35,365 nucleotides of DNA, taken from contig JAAYBR010000029.1 of the NCBI GenBank assembly GCA_012730045.1, positions 1 to 35,365 on the forward strand. The letters are read 5' to 3'. The stretch comes from Candidatus Hydrogenedentota bacterium (GTDB lineage: Bacteria > Hydrogenedentota > Hydrogenedentia > Hydrogenedentales > CAITNO01). The notes below the pieces were generated by a model. That model did no database searches and was not told where the DNA came from. It saw only the letters and a program-made list of their open reading frames with translations. Position numbers and translations under genes: made by a program. Shown piece after piece: positions 8,079-32,444 of the stretch. How positions within the stretch are numbered: position 1 is the first letter of the stretch; each line of letters starts with the position of its first letter.

Positions 8079-10307
8079 TCAGCGGACCTCGTTGCGGAGG
8101 CGGGCGGCGAGGCGGGTGTTGCGGCGGGTCTGGCTGGTGTTGCGTACGGCGCGGGCGACGGCGCGGCGGGAGCCGACGATGACGACCAGGCGGCGGCCGC
8201 GGGTGACGGCGGTGTAGAGGACATTGCGCTGGAGGAGCATGAAGTGCTGGTTGTGGAGGGAGAGGACGACGGCGGGGTATTCGCTGCCCTGGGCCTTGTG
8301 GACCGTGGCGCAGTAGGCCGGGGCGAGGTTGTCCGCCTCGTCCACCGGGTAGAGGACGGCGCGGCCGTCGTCGAAGGAGACCTGGAACTCCCCGGCCTCC
8401 AGGTCCACCGCCGTGACCACGCCCGTGTCGCCGTTGTAGACGTCGAGGGTGTAGTTGTTGCGGAGCTGCATGACCTTGTCGCCGAGGCCGTAGGCGCGGC
8501 CGGGGAGGGGCGCGCCGTTGGGGTTGAGCGCGGTCTGCATGGCGGCGTTCACGGCCTCCACCCCGGCGTCGCCGCGCCGCAGCGGGGCGAGCACCTGGAT
8601 GTCGCGCAGGGGGTCCAGCCCGAAGCGGGCGGGCAGCCGCCGGGCGGCCACCTCCACGAGGGTCTCCACGGCCTTCGCCGGGTCGTCGCGCTCGATGAGC
8701 ACGAAGTCCCGGTCGTTGAACACGGGCATCTCGCCGCGGTTGATGCGGTGGGCGTTGGCGATGATGCCGCTCTCCTCGGCCTGGCGGAAGACGGTGTCGA
8801 GGCGGACCACGGGGACGAGGCCCGACGCGATGATGTCGAGGAGGACGCTGCCCGCGCCGACGGAGGGGAGCTGGTCCACGTCGCCGACGAGCAGCAGCCG
8901 CGCGAAGGAGGGCAGGGCCTCCAGCACGCTCGACAGGAGCTGGATGTCCACCATGGACACCTCGTCCACGACGAGGAGGTCCGTGGCGAGGGGGGCGTGC
9001 TCGCCCTTGGCGAAGCGGCCCGTGGCGGGGTTGAACTCCAGCAGGCGGTGGAGCGTGCGGGCGTCGCGGCCCGTGGCGGCCTCCATGCGCTTGGCGGCGC
9101 GGCCCGTGGGCGCGGCGAGGACGAACGACACCCCCTTCCTTTCGAGGATGGCCAGCAGGCTTTTCAGCACCGTGGTCTTGCCCGTGCCGGGGCCGCCGGT
9201 GATGACCAGCACCTTGCCGCGCGCGCCCTGGCGGACGGCCTCGCGCTGGCGCTCCGACAGGGTGATTTTCCCCTCGCGCTCCACCCAGCGCAGGGCGTTC
9301 TCCACGTTAATCTCCACGGGGTCGTGGGGCGTGCGCAGGAGCCGCTTGAGCCCCTCGGCCGCGCGGCGCTCCGCCGCGTGCAGCAGGGGCGAGAACACCG
9401 CGTCGTCCTCCAGCACCACGCCGCCCGAAGCGGCCAGCGCCGTCACCGCCGCGTCCACCGGGCCCGGCGGCGCGGCCAGCAGCTCCGCCGCGCGCGACAG
9501 CAGCTCGCCGCGCGGCAGGAAGACATGGCCGTCGCCCGACGCGGCGGACAGGGTGTGCAGCACGCCGGCGCGCAGGCGCTCGGGGGCGTCGGCGGCGATG
9601 CCGAGCCGCCGCGCGATGGTGTCGGCGCCCTGGAACCCGACGCCGGAGATGTCCGCGGCGAGGCGGTAGGGGTTCTCGCGCATGACCGCCGCCGCGCCGT
9701 CGCCGTAGTGTTTGTGGATGCGCACGGCGAGGGCGGGGGAGATGCCGTGTCCCTGGAGGAAGACCATGATGCTCTGGAGGGCCTTCTTCTCGCCGAGGGA
9801 TTTGTGGACCTGGGCCGCGCGCTTCGCGCCGATGCCCGGCACGCCGCGCAGGCGCTCCGGCTGCTCCGCGATCACGCGCAGGGTCTCGCGGCCGAAGGCG
9901 GCCACCAGCCGCTTCGCCATCTCCTTCCCCACGCCCGCGATCATGCCCGAGCCCAGGAAGCGCTCGATGCCCTCCGCCGTCGAGGGGAGCACGGTCTCAT
10001 AGGCCGTCACGCGCAGCTCGCGCCCGAACTTGCGGTCCACCTCCCACCGCCCCGTCAGCCGCACCGTCTCCCCCGGCGACACGGCCATCAGGTTGCCCAC
10101 GAAGGTCTCCAGCTCCCGCGTGTCGTCGCGGCGGAGCCGCCCCACGAAGAAGCCGTTCTCGGGGTTCTCGTAGACGATGCGCTCGACGACGCCCTCGACG
10201 GTGTCCGTCGTTTCCAGATCCGTCTGGCCGGGGGCGTCCGGCGGGCCGCCGCCGCCGGGCTTGCGGCCGTTGGGGAAGAGGTCGTCGCGCGTCCAGGGCG
10301 GAGTCAT
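8079..10307 (-). CDS. recD2: RecD2-family ATP-dependent DNA helicase
   Basis: 742 residues, normal for stand-alone RecD2, a 5'-3' superfamily 1B helicase acting in DNA repair without RecBC. Domains in order: N-terminal OB-like region (about 34-110), helix-hairpin-helix segments including GVPGIGAKRAAQ (155-166), then the motor with Walker A GGPGTGKTT (371-379), DEVSM Walker B, and the 2A-side motifs ending in YCATVHKAQGSEYPAVVL and AVTRGRR. The ATG at 10307 overlaps the SDR stop as ATGA, so the two genes are probably translationally coupled. A much longer frame upstream is a shadow of the SDR gene. Confidence 0.93.
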   Translation of the reverse strand: MTPPWTRDDLFPNGRKPGGGGPPDAPGQTDLETTDTVEGVVERIVYENPENGFFVGRLRRDDTRELETFVGNLMAVSPGETVRLTGRWEVDRKFGRELRVTAYETVLPSTAEGIERFLGSGMIAGVGKEMAKRLVAAFGRETLRVIAEQPERLRGVPGIGAKRAAQVHKSLGEKKALQSIMVFLQGHGISPALAVRIHKHYGDGAAAVMRENPYRLAADISGVGFQGADTIARRLGIAADAPERLRAGVLHTLSAASGDGHVFLPRGELLSRAAELLAAPPGPVDAAVTALAASGGVVLEDDAVFSPLLHAAERRAAEGLKRLLRTPHDPVEINVENALRWVEREGKITLSERQREAVRQGARGKVLVITGGPGTGKTTVLKSLLAILERKGVSFVLAAPTGRAAKRMEAATGRDARTLHRLLEFNPATGRFAKGEHAPLATDLLVVDEVSMVDIQLLSSVLEALPSFARLLLVGDVDQLPSVGAGSVLLDIIASGLVPVVRLDTVFRQAEESGIIANAHRINRGEMPVFNDRDFVLIERDDPAKAVETLVEVAARRLPARFGLDPLRDIQVLAPLRRGDAGVEAVNAAMQTALNPNGAPLPGRAYGLGDKVMQLRNNYTLDVYNGDTGVVTAVDLEAGEFQVSFDDGRAVLYPVDEADNLAPAYCATVHKAQGSEYPAVVLSLHNQHFMLLQRNVLYTAVTRGRRLVVIVGSRRAVARAVRNTSQTRRNTRLAARLRNEVR

Positions 10308-11023
10308 AGGGGCTCGCTGCCGAAGCGCCGGACGTGAATGATGTCCGTCACCGCGCGCGGGCTCTGCGTGGCGACATAGAGCGCCGTGTGCGCGATGTCC
10401 TCCGGCGTCATCCAGCCCGTCTTGTCGCGGTGCGGCATGTTGTCCCGCGCCATCTTCGTGTCCACCCCGCCCGGACAGATGGCGTGGATGGCGATGTTGT
10501 CCGCCTTCAGCTCCAGCGCGAGGGCCTTCGTCAGGCCGTTCACCCCGTGCTTCGCCGCCGTGTACGCCGACTGGAGGTGGAGCCCCTTGATCCCCGTCAC
10601 GCTCGAGATGTTGATGATGCGGCCCGCGCGCCGCGCCCGCATGTGCGGGAGAAAGGCCTGGATCGCCGTGAAGACCGACGTCAGGTTCACGTCCAGCGTC
10701 CGTTGCCACTCCTCCGGCGTCAGCTCCAGGAAGGGCCGGAACACCGCCCACCCCGCGTTGTTCACCAGGATGTCCACGGCGGGGAACGCCTCCAGCGCCG
10801 CCGCCGCCATCCGCCGGACGTCCTCCGGCTCCGCCACGTCGCACCGGCGCCACTCCGCCCGCCGCCCCAGCGCGCGGACCAGCCCGGCCGTCTCCTCCAG
10901 CTCCGGCGCCGTCCGCGCCGCCAGGAACACGTCGCAGCCCTCGCGGGCAAACGCCAGCGCGATGGCCCGGCCGATGCCCCGCCCCGCCCCGGTGATGACG
11001 GCGGTCTTGCCCTCCAGCAGCAT
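10304..11023 (-). CDS. Short-chain dehydrogenase/reductase (SDR)
   Basis: 239 residues, classical SDR with Rossmann fold. TGAGRGIG at 11-18 binds NAD(P); NNAG at 88-91; catalytic Ser in INISS (140/141), Tyr154 and Lys158 in YTAAK. PGGVDTKMA near residue 195 is the usual post-catalytic loop. The substrate is unknown; the family includes 3-oxoacyl-ACP and sugar/alcohol reductases. The ATG at 11023 follows GGAAGGAGA. First gene of a unit with recD2. Its first six codons, RBS and promoter occur again 1,190 bases upstream, at the far side of a low-GC insert. Confidence 0.9.
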   Translation of the reverse strand: MLLEGKTAVITGAGRGIGRAIALAFAREGCDVFLAARTAPELEETAGLVRALGRRAEWRRCDVAEPEDVRRMAAAALEAFPAVDILVNNAGWAVFRPFLELTPEEWQRTLDVNLTSVFTAIQAFLPHMRARRAGRIINISSVTGIKGLHLQSAYTAAKHGVNGLTKALALELKADNIAIHAICPGGVDTKMARDNMPHRDKTGWMTPEDIAHTALYVATQSPRAVTDIIHVRRFGSEPL

Positions 11024-11094
11024 GATGTCTCCTTCCTCGAAAACCCGGCGCGCCGCCCGCGCGGCCGCGCGCAGACACTATAAGCGCGCGGCGC
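11006..11094. repeat. 89-bp direct repeat, left copy (SDR start and promoter)
   Basis: Contains codons 1-6 of the SDR gene, its RBS, and a minus-strand TATAGT -10 (11077-11082). It matches 12196-12284 with the first 35 and the last 34 bases identical and a small cluster of differences in the 20 bases between. Beyond 11094 the sequence turns abruptly AT-rich. Confidence 0.92.
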
Positions 11095-11275
11095 TGCACA
11101 AAACCAATTCGTCCCATGGATTGCTATCGCCTGCCTTCCGGCCGCCACAAGGCAGAGCCCCGTAATGGATAGTTACTTTTGATACCATTGTCGAAAATAG
11201 AAGGAACCTTTCCTACCTTGTGGTGACAGCCTTCCTCCACAGGCTGAGGCCAAAGATTAGTCTAGATCGTTTCGA

Positions 11276-12145
11276 TTACCCCGAGTTGCTTTCAAGCGCA
11301 TCCTGTTCACTTCTAATAAATACTTCGTCAACACCGTGACGGTCGTTTGCATGGATGAGTCGCATTAATACCTTCTCGCGGAGAAACTGTACTTTTCGTA
11401 AACTTAACCCTGCATATCGAATGGCACGATAACGGATATATGCGCGAGTCCGAAATGGGCATGTGCTGTACATATCAACCCGCATAAAGAATCCTTTGTA
11501 ATCTATGATTAGCCTTGTTGTGTATAGCATCGGAATCATCGCCACCGTCAGAATCGTTGGCAATGCAAGAGGTCGGATTATTGAAATCGAAAACACATCA
11601 GCCATTTCTGCAGATAATGCGCGGATGGAAGCTAACAGGACGGCCAAGACAACGGATGCCTGAATGAGAGAAACTAGCACGGGAATCACACGAGGTTCAG
11701 GGTATCTTTCGGCTACTACCAACAAAGTTCCGAGAAGACCCAAAATGAATACAAGCATTACCTCTGCAATGAGCGGAAAGGTATGTATGTTTAAGATGTA
11801 TTCAATTACGACCGCAGCCCTTACTCCGTCTTTGAGGAAGCGCCATATCACTAAGGTTGGGTCCTTTTCCAATATGATTCGCGATGGCATAACTGCAGAA
11901 TATGTAACGATCCACAACAAGGTGTCTTTCAAGAGATCTGTTCTCCAGAAACCTACCTTGTATATAATCCATACTATTGCGGCTTGGTACAGAAGCGCCA
12001 TCCCAAATAGTGTTAGTATCTTTTTATGAATGATTGCTCGAAGCACTCCGTTTGACGCTTTTCGAGTGCTTGGATAACATAACACAAAGAGAAGGATGAG
12101 AGCAGCCCAAATCAGCACCGCCATCTCTCGAGTATTAAATGCCAT
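11276..12145 (-). CDS. Polytopic membrane protein of unknown function (low GC)
   Basis: 289 residues, not recognised. There are about six to seven hydrophobic segments: near 8-24, the 40s-60s, the 80s-90s, two in the LIAEVMLVFILGLLGTLL region, then VLVSLIQASVVLAVLLASI and ALPTILTVAMIPMLY. The C-terminal 60 residues are polar and basic (YIRYRAIRYAGLSLRK), probably cytosolic. The ATG at 12145 has GAGGA upstream. Base composition and codon choice (many A/T-ending codons) differ sharply from neighbours, indicating transfer. A duplicated SDR promoter and start lie directly upstream, so it may be transcribed from that borrowed promoter. No enzyme motif is visible. Confidence 0.7.
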   Translation of the reverse strand: MAFNTREMAVLIWAALILLFVLCYPSTRKASNGVLRAIIHKKILTLFGMALLYQAAIVWIIYKVGFWRTDLLKDTLLWIVTYSAVMPSRIILEKDPTLVIWRFLKDGVRAAVVIEYILNIHTFPLIAEVMLVFILGLLGTLLVVAERYPEPRVIPVLVSLIQASVVLAVLLASIRALSAEMADVFSISIIRPLALPTILTVAMIPMLYTTRLIIDYKGFFMRVDMYSTCPFRTRAYIRYRAIRYAGLSLRKVQFLREKVLMRLIHANDRHGVDEVFIRSEQDALESNSG

Positions 12146-12162
12146 TCTTGCTTTTCCTCGTA

Positions 12163-12213
12163 TTACCGACGGCCAGATGCTGCCTTGTGCTGGCACTTGC
12201 CCTCCAGCAGCAT
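12163..12213 (-). CDS. 16-codon fused leader ORF at the cassette junction
   Basis: The duplicated SDR start runs six codons (MLLEGK), crosses the junction and reads CQHKAASGRR before TAA. It keeps the SDR Shine-Dalgarno sequence and ends 17 bases before the membrane-protein ATG, so ribosomes could be handed on. It is probably a by-product of insertion or a coupling leader, not a functional peptide. Confidence 0.4.
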   Translation of the reverse strand: MLLEGKCQHKAASGRR

Positions 12214-12284
12214 GATGTCTCCTTCCTCGATGACCGGCGCGCCGCCCCACGCGGCCGCGCGCAGACACTATAAGCGCGCGGCGC
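12196..12284. repeat. 89-bp direct repeat, right copy
   Basis: Second copy of 11006-11094, at an offset of exactly 1,190 bases. It retains the minus-strand TATAGT (12267-12272), RBS and start codon, so it offers a ready promoter for the low-GC gene. Upstream of it the sequence is GC-rich host DNA. Confidence 0.92.
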
Positions 12285-12429
12285 GGGCCGCCGCCACTTC
12301 AGGCGGTTTCCCCGTTGCGGCACAGAGAAGGGGCCGGCGGGAATGGACGGGGTTTCCCGCCGCATCCCGCGCGCCCATGTCCCCCCCCCTCTTCCCGGCG
12401 CCGCGCCCTCCCCGCCTCCGTGGGGAATC

Positions 12430-12465: not shown

Positions 12466-13332
12466 ATGCTCTCACTTGTGTGCTGTCTGCTGACGCTGGC
12501 CGCCGCGCCGGACGCGGGGGTGCGCTTTCAGGCGCACCGGGGCGGACTGGCGGAGTATCCGGAGAACACGCTCGCGGCGTACCGCGCGTCGTGGGCGCTC
12601 GGCGCGCTGCCGGAGGTGGACATCCGCACCACGCGGGACGGGGACATCGTCTGCCTGCATGACGCGACGCTGGCGCGCACGACGAACGCGCCGGCGGGCA
12701 TCCGCGACACGGATGTCCGGGACCTCCCGACGGCGGAGGTGCGGCGGTGGGACGCGGGCGCGAAGTTCTCCCCGAAGCACGCGGGGGAGAAGGTGCCCCT
12801 GCTGGCGGAGGTGCTGGACGAGATGCGGGCGGACCCGGCCCGGCGGGTCTATCTGGACTTCAAGGCGGTGGACCTGGACATTCTGTCCGGCATCCTGCGG
12901 GATTCCGGCGCCGCGGAGCGGATCATCTTCTGCCACAACGCCCACGACAACTGCCGGACCGTGAAGGGGAAGGTGCCCGGCATCCGCACGATGCTGTGGA
13001 TCGGCGGGAAACCCGGCGAGATCCGGAAAACATACGCGGCCGCCGCCGCGACGGGCTTCGCGCAGCTTGACCAGGTGCAGCTCCACCTCCATGCCCCGGG
13101 CGGGCCGGGCGCGGAACCCTTTGAGCTGCCCCTCGACTTCCTCCGGACGTGCCTCGCCGAGACCGGCGCGGCGGGTGTGGACCTGGAGGTGCTCCCCTTC
13201 GCCGCGGACGCCCCGCTGGACATGCTGCTCGACCTCGGCATCCGCTGGTACGCCACGGACCGTCCCGGCCGCTTCGCCGAAGCCGTCAGGGTCTGGGCGG
13301 AAAAACGGGGCGCGCGCACCGCGCCGGAATGA
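12466..13332 (+). CDS. Glycerophosphodiester phosphodiesterase family protein
   Basis: 288 residues; hydrolyses glycerophosphodiesters to glycerol 3-phosphate and an alcohol, metal dependent, TIM-barrel fold. Catalytic signatures: AHRG (H24, R25), PENT (33-34), E50-x-D52, and a second His in CLHD (H65), all at the expected spacing. A short hydrophobic N-terminus (LSLVCCLLTLAAAPDA) suggests export. The ATG at 12466 follows AAGGA. No operon partner is evident; the MFS permease of organophosphate type at 916-2250 is too far to be co-transcribed. The C-terminal half is somewhat divergent (WIGGKPGE), so the substrate may not be a standard phospholipid headgroup. Confidence 0.88.
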   Translation: MLSLVCCLLTLAAAPDAGVRFQAHRGGLAEYPENTLAAYRASWALGALPEVDIRTTRDGDIVCLHDATLARTTNAPAGIRDTDVRDLPTAEVRRWDAGAKFSPKHAGEKVPLLAEVLDEMRADPARRVYLDFKAVDLDILSGILRDSGAAERIIFCHNAHDNCRTVKGKVPGIRTMLWIGGKPGEIRKTYAAAAATGFAQLDQVQLHLHAPGGPGAEPFELPLDFLRTCLAETGAAGVDLEVLPFAADAPLDMLLDLGIRWYATDRPGRFAEAVRVWAEKRGARTAPE

Positions 13333-19614: not shown

Positions 19615-19715
19615 GATGGACGATATGGACACTATGGACGGTATGGACGAAGAAGGCCGGCCGTCCGCGCCGGTCCATACTGTCCATACCGTCCATAGTG
19701 TCCATATCGTCCATC
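19615..19715. repeat. 34-bp perfect inverted repeat built from 9-mers
   Basis: Left arm 19615-19648 consists of ATGGAC plus three variable bases repeated (GAT, ACT, GGT). The right arm 19682-19715 is its exact reverse complement, and a 33-base spacer contains GGCCGGCC. It sits between divergent genes, about 90 bases from each start codon, upstream of both. The 9-base period and GGAC core match the arrays around 30.3-31.2 kb. Confidence 0.9.
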
Positions 19716-27529: not shown

Positions 27530-28747
27530 ATGAAATCGGTAGAACTTTTCGCGGGCGCGGGCGGACTCGCCATGGGGGTCGCCCTTGCAGGCTTTGAGTC
27601 TCAGGCCGTTGTCGAGTGGGACAGGTGGGCCTGCGACACCATCCGGAAGAATCAGGATCGCGGCCATCCCCTTGTGCGGGACTGGCCCTTGTGGGAGGGG
27701 GACGTCCGCGCGTATGACTGGTCGTCGCTTCCCAGCGAAATAGACCTGGTTGCCGGAGGCCCGCCCTGCCAGCCCTTCTCCATGGCCGGAAAACACCGGG
27801 CCTACGGGGACGCGCGCGACATGTTTCCCGCCACCGTGGAGGTGATTCGCACCCTGCGCCCGAAGGCGTTTCTCATCGAAAACGTGAAGGGCCTGACCCG
27901 TTCCAGCTTTGCCAATTATTACCAGTACATTCTCCTGCGGCTGGAGTTCCCCGAGGTGACGCGCAGGACGGATGAATCGTGGACGGAACACCTAAAGCGC
28001 CTGCAACGCGAGAAAACGTCCGGTAGGCTGCACGCGGAAGGGCTGACGTACAACGTTGTCCCCACCCTGGTGAACGCCGCCGATTACGGTGTTCCGCAGA
28101 AGAGGGACCGGGTCTTCATTGTTGGTTTCCGGTCCGACCTGGGCGTTCAGTGGTCCTTTCCCCGCCCGACCCACAGCCTGGAGGCGCTTCTGCACAGCCA
28201 ATGGGTGACCGGCGAGTATTGGGAACAGCACCGCGTGGCCGGGAACAGCCGCCCTCAAGTGCCCGCCGCATTCGCCGGCCGGGCCCGAAGGCTGGACCAG
28301 TGCCTGGTCCCTCCGGAACAACGCCCCTGGCGAACGGTTCGCGATGCGCTGTCCGACCTTCCTGCTCCGCGCCAAGGCGAGAGCAACGGCCTTTTCCTTA
28401 ACCACGACTTCCAGGGGGGCGCGCGGGCCTATCCCGGCCACACAGGCAGTCCCCTTGATTTGCCCGCAAAGGCCCTGAAGGCCGGGGACCATGGCGTTCC
28501 CGGCGGGGAAAACATGATGGTGTTCGGCAACGGGGAATGCCGGTATTTCACTGTCCGCGAGTCTGCGCGTGTCCAGACTTTTCCGGATGGATACCTGCTC
28601 GCCGGTTCCTGGACAGAAGCCATGCGCCAGCTTGGAAACGCCGTTCCCGTCGCCCTGGCAAGAAGAGTCGCCGCGTCCGTGGCGGAGAAGATCGCCGAGG
28701 CCGGCATACGGGAGGCGCTGCGTTCGAAAGGAAGGGTTGTGGCATGA
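27530..28747 (+). CDS. Type II DNA (cytosine-5) methyltransferase
   Basis: 405 residues. Motif I FAGAGG (7-12), motif IV GPPCQPFS with catalytic Cys80, motif VI ENVKG (117-121), motif VIII QKRDRVFIVG, motif X RQLGNAVPV near the end. The variable region between VIII and X (about 195-340) holds target recognition. It overlaps the following nuclease by ATGA, so methylase and nuclease are produced together in the order M then R. If the nuclease keeps the Eco29kI specificity, the methylated site would be CCGCGG. The upstream RBS is weak. The 107 bases before it hold no gene. Confidence 0.95.
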   Translation: MKSVELFAGAGGLAMGVALAGFESQAVVEWDRWACDTIRKNQDRGHPLVRDWPLWEGDVRAYDWSSLPSEIDLVAGGPPCQPFSMAGKHRAYGDARDMFPATVEVIRTLRPKAFLIENVKGLTRSSFANYYQYILLRLEFPEVTRRTDESWTEHLKRLQREKTSGRLHAEGLTYNVVPTLVNAADYGVPQKRDRVFIVGFRSDLGVQWSFPRPTHSLEALLHSQWVTGEYWEQHRVAGNSRPQVPAAFAGRARRLDQCLVPPEQRPWRTVRDALSDLPAPRQGESNGLFLNHDFQGGARAYPGHTGSPLDLPAKALKAGDHGVPGGENMMVFGNGECRYFTVRESARVQTFPDGYLLAGSWTEAMRQLGNAVPVALARRVAASVAEKIAEAGIREALRSKGRVVA

Positions 28748-29376
28748 CCGACGGCAATATCCTTCCGTTCAATCCTTTGGACAAGAAGAACCTCGGCGAA
28801 AGCGTCGCGCAGGCCCTGCTCGAACAGCCGCCCGTCAGGCTGCCTGATGTTCAGAAGTTCCGGGGCGCGGGCGTTTATGCCATCTACTATTCGGGAAAGT
28901 TCCCGGCCTACAAACCTCTGGCTGAGGCAAACGCCGGTGGACGTCCTGCAACGCCGATCTATGTTGGAAAAGCGGTTCCAGCGGGGGCGAGAAAGGGTGG
29001 AGACTTGGAGGCGGATCCGAAGTTCGCCCTCTATGACCGCCTGCAAGACCACGCGAAGAGCATAGAACAGGCCGAAAACCTGGAAGTGAGGGATTTCTGT
29101 TGCCGCTATCTCGTGGTTGACGATATTTGGATTCCTCTCGGAGAGGCACTGCTGATTGCGCGGTTTTCCCCGCTTTGGAACAAGGTGATAGACGGGTTTG
29201 GCAACCATGACCCCGGAAAAGGCCGGCATGAGGGGTTGCGACCCCGCTGGGACGTGCTGCACCCCGGCCGGCCATGGGCCGCCCGGTGCAAAGACCGGCC
29301 GGAAACTGCAGCGCTGATCAAGAGTGAGGCTCTGAATTTCCTTCGAAACAGTCCACCGTCAGACGGGCACGGGTGA
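28744..29376 (+). CDS. Eco29kI-family GIY-YIG restriction endonuclease
   Basis: 210 residues, normal for Eco29kI-type enzymes. GIY appears as GVY (43-45), YIG as YVG in PIYVGKAVP (71-79), followed by an Arg in LYDRLQDH (about 99), the catalytic Glu134 in PLGEALL, and Asn146 in SPLWNKVIDG. The C-terminal GNHDPGKGRHEG and RPRWDVLHPGRPWA match the family's conserved tail. It cleaves DNA at sites protected by the upstream methyltransferase; Eco29kI itself cuts CCGCGG, but this homologue's site is unproven. Slightly lower GC than neighbours suggests acquisition as a unit with the methylase. Confidence 0.93.
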   Translation: MTDGNILPFNPLDKKNLGESVAQALLEQPPVRLPDVQKFRGAGVYAIYYSGKFPAYKPLAEANAGGRPATPIYVGKAVPAGARKGGDLEADPKFALYDRLQDHAKSIEQAENLEVRDFCCRYLVVDDIWIPLGEALLIARFSPLWNKVIDGFGNHDPGKGRHEGLRPRWDVLHPGRPWAARCKDRPETAALIKSEALNFLRNSPPSDGHG

Positions 29377-30288: not shown

Positions 30289-31011
30289 TCAGTCGGACAG
30301 GTCGGACAAGTCAGACGGGTCTGACAGGTCTGACAGTTCTGACTTGTTCAATCCGCCTCTTGAGTCCGACCCGTCCGACCTGTCCGACTTGTCCGACCTG
30401 TTCGACCCCTGCCGTCCCCTGGACTCCACGCGCTGCCGGTAGAGACTCTCCGTGAAACCGCCCTCGCGCAAAAAACTCCGCCCCTGGCTCTCGATTTGGC
30501 GTTTCAAGAGGTAGGCGGCCTGGTGCACCGCGCAAACCATGGCGTTTGCCGCCAGTTCGGGGGATGACTGCGCCACGAAATCCGCCAGTCCGGCGAGACC
30601 CGTCAGGCGGACCGTTCCGGGCGCGGCAGGGGGCAGGTCCTCGACCCGGTCCTTCGAGAGCCGGTCGCGCATGGCCCGCGCCTCCCGTGAATCCCCCGGC
30701 CATAGCCGCAGGCCGTTCTGGCGCAGAAAACTCTCGTAGTCGCGGAGGAGTTCATCGTTCAGGCTCGCCCGCGCCACATTGGTCAGTTTCATCTCGGTCT
30801 TGCGCGACGTGGCCGCCGCGCCGCTCCCCTCGCTGATGTTGCGCACCCCGCTGCGCGCCGCCTGCACCATCTGGTCCGTCATCCGCCGGTCCTGCGGGAA
30901 GAAACGCCGGCAAAACACCACCGTGGCGTCATACACCGCCTCCGCCACCTTGTAGCTGCGGAGGTTCCGGTAGCCGCCATGCGGAAGCAGGGGGGTGCCG
31001 TCGGAGCCCAT
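30289..31011 (-). CDS. Four-helix-bundle suffix-domain protein with repeat-encoded tail
   Basis: 240 residues. Residues about 8-110 form the four-helix-bundle (23S rRNA intervening-sequence protein/S23-like) domain: YRNLRSYKVAEAVYDATVVFC, MVQAARSGVRNISEGSGA, then a helix with ASLNDELLRDYESFLRQ. A second conserved segment, FVAQSSPELAANAMVCAVHQ to SFLREGGFTESLYRQR, is the suffix domain. The last 35 or so residues are Ser-Asp-x tripeptides (SDKSDRSDGSD) encoded by the flanking 9-base array, which also supplies the stop. Such bundles bind RNA or nucleoprotein in related systems (for example Avd of diversity-generating retroelements); the role here is unknown. The ATG at 31011 is chosen where homology begins. 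Confidence 0.85.
   Translation of the reverse strand: MGSDGTPLLPHGGYRNLRSYKVAEAVYDATVVFCRRFFPQDRRMTDQMVQAARSGVRNISEGSGAAATSRKTEMKLTNVARASLNDELLRDYESFLRQNGLRLWPGDSREARAMRDRLSKDRVEDLPPAAPGTVRLTGLAGLADFVAQSSPELAANAMVCAVHQAAYLLKRQIESQGRSFLREGGFTESLYRQRVESRGRQGSNRSDKSDRSDGSDSRGGLNKSELSDLSDPSDLSDLSD
30292..30406. repeat. 9-bp repeat array, left side, in inverted arms
   Basis: 30292-30344 holds six 9-mers of type GTCGGACAG (variants GTCAGACGG, GTCTGACAG). After a 19-base gap, 30364-30406 holds about five 9-mers of the complementary type GTCCGACCT. Together they form a long hairpin. The array encodes the last residues and stop of the four-helix-bundle gene on the minus strand. Confidence 0.88.
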
Positions 31012-31045
31012 GGTCCTATCCTCCCAAGGAAGCCAGAATAATCCA

Positions 31046-31231
31046 GTCGGACGGGTCGGACAAGTCTGACCTGTCGGACAAGTCTGACAAAAGCACTGCC
31101 GCAGGCGCCACTTTTCACCTGTCGGACGAGTCGGACCGGTCTGACTTGTCCGACAGGTCTGATAGAAGCATTGCGGCAGCCGCCACTTTCTGCTTGTCCG
31201 ACCCGTCCGACCTGTCCGACCTGTCCGATCT
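31046..31231. repeat. 9-bp repeat arrays, right side, with an interspersed longer unit
   Basis: Blocks of 9-mers at 31046-31088 and 31119-31162 (GTCGGAC/GTCTGAC types, partly reversed) and 31194-31230 (GTCCGACCT type). Between them two copies of a further unit occur: AAGCACTGCCGCAGGCGCC near 31091 and AAGCATTGCGGCAGCCGCC near 31167. The outermost block is inverted relative to the leftmost block at 30292, so the whole 0.94-kb unit has 9-mer inverted ends. It lies directly upstream of the four-helix-bundle gene and ends next to the stop of the following gene. Confidence 0.82.
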
Positions 31232-31232
31232 T

Positions 31233-32444
31233 TCAGCCCCCCGCCCGCCGCGCCATTTCGCGCAGCATCTTCTCCCGGCTGATGGGCTTCACTTCGCGCA
31301 CGATCCATTCGCGCATGGCGCGGCCCGGGCCGGTGTCCTGGGGCGCGGAGAGGAATTCCAGCTCCACCCCCAGCCGCTCCGCGACGCCCAGCGCGATCAG
31401 GGGCCACACGGCGCCGATGTCGCCGATGAGGGGGATGCTCCCCTCGTGGCGGGCGAAGCCGGACATCTCCATGCGGAAGGGCACCTTGAACATCTTGGTC
31501 TTGGGCAGGCCGTCGGCGATGGCGCGCTGCACCGCGCCGCCGGACCGCTCCGCGGCGCAGACCTGGTCCAGCGCGGGGTCGAGGTCCACGCGCACCAGCG
31601 TCTTCCCCTCCAGCGAGTAGGTGGGGTGGCCGTCCCAGGCGGACCACATGCCGTGGCCGGTGTAGCGCTCGAAGGGGCCGTCGTGGATTTCCTGCGTGAG
31701 GGCCACGGCGGACTCGATGATGACGTCGGCGGCCCCGAGCATCCGCGACAGGCGCGCGGCCCGTTCGCGCAGGGAAATGGTGTCGCCGATGTTGAGCCCG
31801 ACCGCGCCGCCGCCGATGAGCTGCGGCACCGTCACGATGACCGGCAGGCCGCGCTCCGCGCCCGCGCCGATCATGGTCCACGGGTCCGCGCCGAGGCCCG
31901 CGGCCTCCTCGAAGGACAGCCCCGCCCCGCGCGCAAGGGTCATGATCTCCTGCGACAGCCGCTCCAGCCACAGGCCCACGGGATACCCGAGGTTCCCCGC
32001 CGCCTTGATGATGGTCTTGCCCTCCGCCGCCTCGAGCCGCGCGAGGAGCCCCTCGTCCACCTGCGTGTGCCGCCGGATATCGTCCAGCGTCTCCGGCGAC
32101 ATGAGGGTCAGCTCGAACTCGCCGCCCCGCGGCAGCAGCTCCGGCGGCACCCCCAGCGGCGCGCCGGGACACCGTTTCACGCGGTCCAGCGTGCCGCCCA
32201 TCTCGTGGGAGACGACGGCGGAGCTGGTGGACACGCCGTCCACGATCCCCGCGCGCATGAGCCCCGCCAGCAGCGTGGTCACGCCCTCGTGGATGTTCGG
32301 GCCGCTGCCCGTGACCACGGCCACCTTCCCGCCACGCTCCTTGGCCGCGGCGATGCGTGCCACGGCCTCGTCTATGCGGGCGAGGGTGGCCTCCTCCAGG
32401 CGCTCCCGGCAGAGCGCCGCAACGGCGGCGTGCTCAGACTTCAT
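31233..32444 (-). CDS. Unrecognised protein with a Rossmann-like NAD/FAD-binding appearance
   Basis: 403 residues, soluble, no signal. I do not recognise a named family. The segment KVAVVTGSGPNIHEGVTTLL followed by AGIVDGVSTSSAVVSHEMGG resembles the deoxyhypusine-synthase-like NAD/FAD-binding fold (also found in the C-terminal part of LOR/SDH-type enzymes). Other striking segments are KTIIKAAGNLGYPVG, LGADPWTMIGAGAERG, GLNIGDTISLRERAARL and HGMWSAWDGHPTYSLEGK. The start overlaps the kdsB stop by 11 bases, so it is translated with kdsB and may serve the same cell-envelope sugar pathway or a housekeeping role. Its stop falls just beside the 9-mer array. Confidence 0.75.
   Translation of the reverse strand: MKSEHAAVAALCRERLEEATLARIDEAVARIAAAKERGGKVAVVTGSGPNIHEGVTTLLAGLMRAGIVDGVSTSSAVVSHEMGGTLDRVKRCPGAPLGVPPELLPRGGEFELTLMSPETLDDIRRHTQVDEGLLARLEAAEGKTIIKAAGNLGYPVGLWLERLSQEIMTLARGAGLSFEEAAGLGADPWTMIGAGAERGLPVIVTVPQLIGGGAVGLNIGDTISLRERAARLSRMLGAADVIIESAVALTQEIHDGPFERYTGHGMWSAWDGHPTYSLEGKTLVRVDLDPALDQVCAAERSGGAVQRAIADGLPKTKMFKVPFRMEMSGFARHEGSIPLIGDIGAVWPLIALGVAERLGVELEFLSAPQDTGPGRAMREWIVREVKPISREKMLREMARRAGG

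Follow-up and report, generated by a model that had tools for sequence, protein, structure and literature searches.

Three low-GC inserts, each lying between direct copies of the end of a host gene and each leaving that gene intact on its inner side, were identified in the genome of a Candidatus Hydrogenedentota bacterium, and none of them was found to encode a recombinase or a fragment of one. These inserts point to a recurrent mode of gene acquisition in which the host gene is left unbroken and no recombinase is visible. Many foreign genes of bacteria are situated outside of islands with a recognisable integrase, and their route of entry is often unclear. The first of the inserts was observed in the window (the whole stretch of DNA analysed, 35,365 nucleotides), where it adjoins the gene of an SDR family dehydrogenase. 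As the structure recurs at two further loci, the observation is stronger than was first reported.

The SDR locus and its insert

On the minus strand, the locus was found to be ordered as host flank, outer copy of the SDR 5’ end (copy B, 12196-12284), foreign insert (11095-12195, 1,101 bp), inner copy (copy A, 11006-11094) and the SDR gene itself (10304-11023, 239 amino acids; Pfam adh_short, E 6.8e-64). Re-measurement bore out the 89-base length of the repeats, their spacing of 1,190 bases and the coordinates given in the first-pass annotation, with the copies being 94.4% identical over 90 aligned columns that contain two single-base gaps. Each copy consists of approximately 70 bp upstream of the SDR start (5’ UTR with a candidate -10 element), followed by the RBS, the ATG and codons one to six, and the only strong matches to the repeat in the 4.46-Mb assembly were copies A and B. 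The claims that the SDR is kept whole by the adjoining copy and that the outer copy joins host DNA were both upheld, the first by the intact ORF with its adh_short match and the second by approximately 15 bp beyond the repeat that are common to the flank of a relative (see below). The host neighbour on this outer side is a gene of the glycerophosphodiester phosphodiesterase family (GDPD, 12466-13332, plus strand; Pfam GDPD, E 5.1e-25), divergent from the SDR.

The GC content of the insert is 45.4%, compared to 69.7% for the remaining window, in keeping with its earlier description as a low-GC foreign cassette. A value this low or lower was reached by 0.065% of random 1.1-kb intervals (2.1 Mb sampled), and at third codon positions the inserted ORF has a GC content of 44%, compared to 97% for the SDR. 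The sole gene of the insert encodes a membrane protein, and the cassette was correctly described as being free of a recombinase. Near one end of the insert, a 7-bp stem (CTGCCTT/AAGGCAG) was observed at 11131-11155, and CACAAGGCAG at 11146-11155 recurs in inverted orientation at 12180-12189, 6 bp from the other insert end; both features are too short to be trusted.

The membrane protein (11276-12145, minus strand, 289 amino acids) possesses several hydrophobic segments by hydropathy and was predicted to be all-helical by a single-sequence structure model of low confidence (pLDDT 54.5). It had been described as an unknown membrane protein, and comparison to Pfam, PADLOC and NCBIfam yielded no match; identity as a known anti-phage defence gene was rejected on the PADLOC result. 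A distant homologue (25% identity, E 2e-13) was identified on a Salmonella plasmid, where it sits near integrase-like genes, and relatives of this homologue were found on plasmids of Arcobacter and Haladaptatus. Compared to these plasmid homologues the insert protein is shorter, with its C terminus lacking about 140 residues. A search of the phylum’s other 67 genomes gave no convincing relative, the two matches with E near 0.007 covering short parts and having an internal stop, and viral and genome contigs, when scanned by pattern, yielded no close relatives; a four-member alignment of the homologues was too diverse for scanning. The Arcobacter homologue is surrounded by genes typical of defence regions, and the company of these genes suggests a possible role for the membrane protein in conflict or defence.

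The same Arcobacter plasmid was observed to carry an 85-base intergenic repeat in four copies on the same strand (record 91-106 kb), including copies at L232 3763-3847, 9312-9396 and 15737-15821, with defence-like genes situated between them. A tyrosine recombinase gene is located at 78.8 kb of the record, and a simple test for attC-like pairs on this plasmid identified none.

The best start of the membrane ORF is the ATG at 12145, preceded at a distance of ten bases by a GAGG of its own. A 16-codon frame (MLLEGKCQHKAASGRR; 12163-12213, minus strand), read from the sequence as a putative ORF, begins at the SDR start of copy B. As this is a separate frame that stops at 12163, it is a short upstream ORF and not a fused leader, and the earlier proposal that the membrane gene is expressed through a 16-codon leader was not sustained. 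A consensus scan identified no sigma-70-like promoter in either repeat copy, with TATAGT at the distal repeat edge being no more than a candidate -10 element, so that the SDR promoter which the membrane gene would borrow is a putative one.

Other features were observed elsewhere in the window. A type II cytosine methyltransferase and restriction enzyme pair is found on a lower-GC stretch at 27530-29376 (PADLOC MTase_II, REase_II). A perfect 34-bp inverted repeat of 9-base units (GATGGACGATATGG...) is located at 19615-19715, with arrays of similar 9-base units at 30291-31254. Tandem 47-bp repeats occupy the contig end (35180-35365) and are probably the reason why the contig stops.

Empty sites in relatives and recurrence in the genome

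A congener of the source organism (G001, RecD protein 98% identical) was found to possess one SDR 5’ end, located at the end of contig C1214, which stops inside the SDR. This end matches copy A with 98% identity over 101 bases, and its match to copy B reaches position 12299, about 15 bases past the repeat. It has the TTTTCGAGG variant in common with copy A and a GGGG run in common with copy B. Beyond these approximately 15 bases, collinearity between G001 and the window is lost, with G001 possessing a DUF429-like gene there (read from sequence); other parts of contig C1214 match contigs C125 and C97 of the source genome (G000). The contigs of G001 are short. Contig C1214 supports what appears to be the single-copy state, though it is an imperfect empty site for the SDR, because its flank ceases to be collinear so soon and the contig ends inside the gene. 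Of the empty site that the first-pass annotation proposed to look for in relatives, with the SDR joined directly to the host flank, G001 shows the single SDR end and the short flank match, but not collinearity further out.

Orthologues of the SDR, with approximately 52-72% identity, were found in most relatives searched, and none among about 30 further relatives with an orthologue possesses the SDR 5’ end twice. The same arrangement at normal GC, named in the first-pass annotation as the mark of an old tandem duplication, was absent from these relatives. In a member of another genus (G002, C101 4065-5743, L043), an apparent DarT/DarG toxin-antitoxin pair of lower GC was observed by ORF reading upstream of the same SDR. 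A conserved hotspot at the SDR was considered and rejected, with the DarT/DarG-like pair having no flanking repeats and the approximately 30 relatives no duplication.

The scan for direct repeats with two copies covered 2.10 Mb of G000, or 47% of the genome (60 whole or partial contigs), and required a length of 45 bases or more, an identity of 80% or more and a spacing of 0.3-12 kb. Eleven pairs were identified. Ranked by length, the top three (213, 120 and 90 aligned bases) enclose the intervals with the lowest GC among the 11, namely those on contig C9 (0.44), on contig C1 (0.50) and at the SDR locus (0.45); as the number found in this part of the genome, three cases is a lower bound. GC as low as this was found for none of 20,000 random intervals of the same length for C9, 0.06% for C1 and 0.065% for the SDR, with the other eight intervals lying between the 6th and 72nd GC percentile; the case count and these percentile statistics were made with the first case already known, the scan being blind to the other two.

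In the C9 case (C9 12357-15017, L122), a duplicated 213-bp 3’ end of a thiH-like gene (BATS domain) encloses three small low-GC genes, the third having a weak SLATT-like match. In the C1 case (C1 2958-6799, L114), the duplicated segment is a 120-bp 3’ end of a ThiF-family gene, with a vWA, PP2C and kinase trio between the copies. Insert sizes across the three cases range from 1.1 to 3.6 kb. The earlier suggestion to look for other low-GC genes framed by copies of the 5’ end of their neighbour was rewarded by two more cases, with the difference that these are framed by 3’ ends.

A clean empty site for thiF was identified in G001, where contig C722 directly joins bases matching C1:2756 and C1:6685 and is 94-97% identical to C1 on either side of the junction. 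At the level of sequence comparison, this shows an insertion in C1 between 2756 and 6685. The 201 bases from 2757 to the outer copy may be a later addition, as they hold dispersed repeats.

Other low-GC islands on C8, C63 and C143 were not counted, their framing repeats belonging to dispersed families with 6-74 matches in the sample, and neither was C136, which resembles repeated RHS toxin tips. Single low-GC ORFs between direct copies of dispersed intergenic repeats were observed at L121 9970-11666, L140 7027-9184 and G000 C63 29387-31810; these may have followed the same route as the three inserts with the repeats serving as homology, or may be due to chance. An end motif, (A/G)(A/G)GGCAG, which each of the three inserts has 9-20 bp in from one end, was rejected as a shared signal, with other 11-mers also being shared by chance.

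Origin of the second gene end and route of insertion

In C9, five of the seven codon differences between the copies are synonymous and the stop codons are TGA and TAA, while in C1 both substitutions are synonymous, with one additional in-frame gap of 15 bp. At least seven synonymous changes out of nine would have a probability near 0.002 (a binomial estimate, with about a quarter of random changes being synonymous). As these differences are mostly synonymous or in frame, the second gene end is most likely to have evolved as part of a functional gene elsewhere, arriving with the cassette. The outer copy of C9 reads DTRSPAEV, its S being present in three of the four relatives that cover the site, and the gene-side copy has T. 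The coding part of the SDR inside the repeat amounts to 18 bases, identical in copies A and B, so that for this locus import is argued through the sister cases, by analogy with which an imported origin of the gene end appears strongly indicated. This agrees with the earlier proposal that the element itself supplied a target-like 5’ end.

The reading put forward here, tentatively and as the most probable one, is the Campbell-type integration of a circular cassette with its own copy of a gene end, host homologous recombination being the likeliest cause. A small circular DNA would have carried the foreign gene together with a copy of the SDR 5’ end from a related strain, and one crossover with the chromosome within the shared stretch would have resulted in its entry (Campbell insertion), yielding in order the whole gene, the cargo, the displaced end and the old flank. 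The shared stretch would be duplicated by this crossover, with the inner copy completing the SDR and the outer copy staying on the old upstream flank, facing the foreign gene. Both the anatomy and its recurrence are seen directly in the sequence, and the crossover topology is well supported. Host homologous recombination would be the most likely agent, favoured because three inserts without a recombinase are found at three unrelated targets, and we infer the donor, the circular form and the involvement of RecA.

In line with homologous recombination, foreign DNA has direct copies of the same host segment on either side, and the empty site of G001 at thiF is clean. When a small non-replicating plasmid was cut in cells of E. 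coli, 56 of 60 selected recombinants were found to have duplicated part of the shared gene end, and the 14 duplications sequenced (109-950 bp) were attributed to recircularisation followed by one crossover (PMC3240628). The 89-bp repeat of the SDR is slightly under this experimental range and short for efficient RecA pairing, which argues against the reading, as does the failure to find a donor, in which the cassette would adjoin the same gene, among the other 67 genomes of the phylum, all of other species, and the viral and genome contigs. No Ku gene for end joining was found, and circularisation would therefore need another route. A ComEC-like competence gene is present and gives weak support, being uninformative as most control genomes carry one.

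The position at which the repeats end, approximately 4 bp (C9) and approximately 9 bp (C1) past the stop codon, also counts against homologous recombination of random fragments and favours a selected integrative element, although this argument is weakened for C1 because two convergent genes abut there in G001. Repeats that end where gene function ends would suit a remnant or non-autonomous relative of an e14/icd-type site-specific element, the recombinase of which cuts inside the target gene while the element supplies the remaining gene part. Such an origin is almost as probable as host homologous recombination, with the anatomy being the same as that re-measured for e14 of E. coli K-12 and the tyrosine or serine recombinase acting in trans or having been deleted. 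However, neither a recombinase nor a fragment is encoded by any insert, three unrelated target genes would call for three different recombinases, all of them missing, and no shared core sequence was found among the three cases.

A local duplication at insertion, whether by fill-in of a staggered break or by joining of a broken sister chromatid around captured foreign DNA, would give repeats of variable length at unrelated targets without a recombinase. Copies formed in this manner start identical and the outer one decays freely, yet synonymous or in-frame changes make up most of the differences in C9 and C1, and it is the outer copy of C9 that has the S of the relatives while the gene-side copy differs, making this explanation improbable. 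An assembly artefact joining two strains is very improbable, for although the genome is a draft of 155 contigs and the copies differ at strain-like levels, there are three cases, each with an intact inner-side gene, and the uninterrupted sequence of G001 agrees with the outer arrangement. Two further candidates were rejected: an integron cassette, with no attC pair (complementary RYYYAAC...GTTRRRY) identified in any of the three inserts, and a transposon with target-site duplication, with no transposase in the insert and repeats of 89, 120 and 213 bp rather than a fixed short duplication.

An extension of the preferred reading, Campbell-type integration by host homologous recombination, is that recombinase-free cassettes made up of cargo and a working host-gene end move in and out at that gene by this means, the end acting as a homing address and the gene being kept alive. 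This is unlikely in itself, but if homologous recombination alone suffices, the cassettes would form mobile units addressed by a gene end. The recurrent signature (an intact inner gene, a displaced outer end, no recombinase and synonymous differences between copies) lends itself to a simple scan, which could show the frequency of the route and whether a recombinase is missing, supplied in trans or unneeded.

Comparison with known integrating systems

Elements of the SXT/dusA type target the 5’ end of a gene, the expression of which is kept by the 5’ sequence of the element itself, and possess an integrase. The SDR case is likewise at a gene 5’ end, but unlike these elements the cassettes described here carry no integrase. 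CIMEs are att-flanked elements without a recombination module. They are alike in having cargo between direct repeats with the recombinase absent, whereas a survey of about 30 relatives showed no related ICE or IME with the same sites at the SDR end. The integration described for E. coli (PMC3240628) is similar in that foreign DNA is flanked by a duplicated shared gene end with no recombinase being required, although a laboratory plasmid under selection was involved there, and no natural donor was identified for the cassettes described here.

Re-measurement of e14 in E. coli K-12 identified a duplicated icd end of 165 bp, 92.7% identical between copies, that ends just past the icd stop codon. 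The differences between these icd copies are mostly silent, with two conservative D/E changes, and the GC content of the element is 0.45. In e14 and phage 21 at icd, as in the cases described here, the end brought by the element completes the target gene while the displaced host end lies on the far side. In contrast, e14 is 15 kb in size and encodes an integrase and an excisionase, compared to cassettes of 1.1-3.6 kb without a recombinase, and the SDR case is at a 5’ end. While set apart from e14 by their size and missing recombinase, the cassettes have as their closest known kind the gene-restoring integration that e14 exemplifies.
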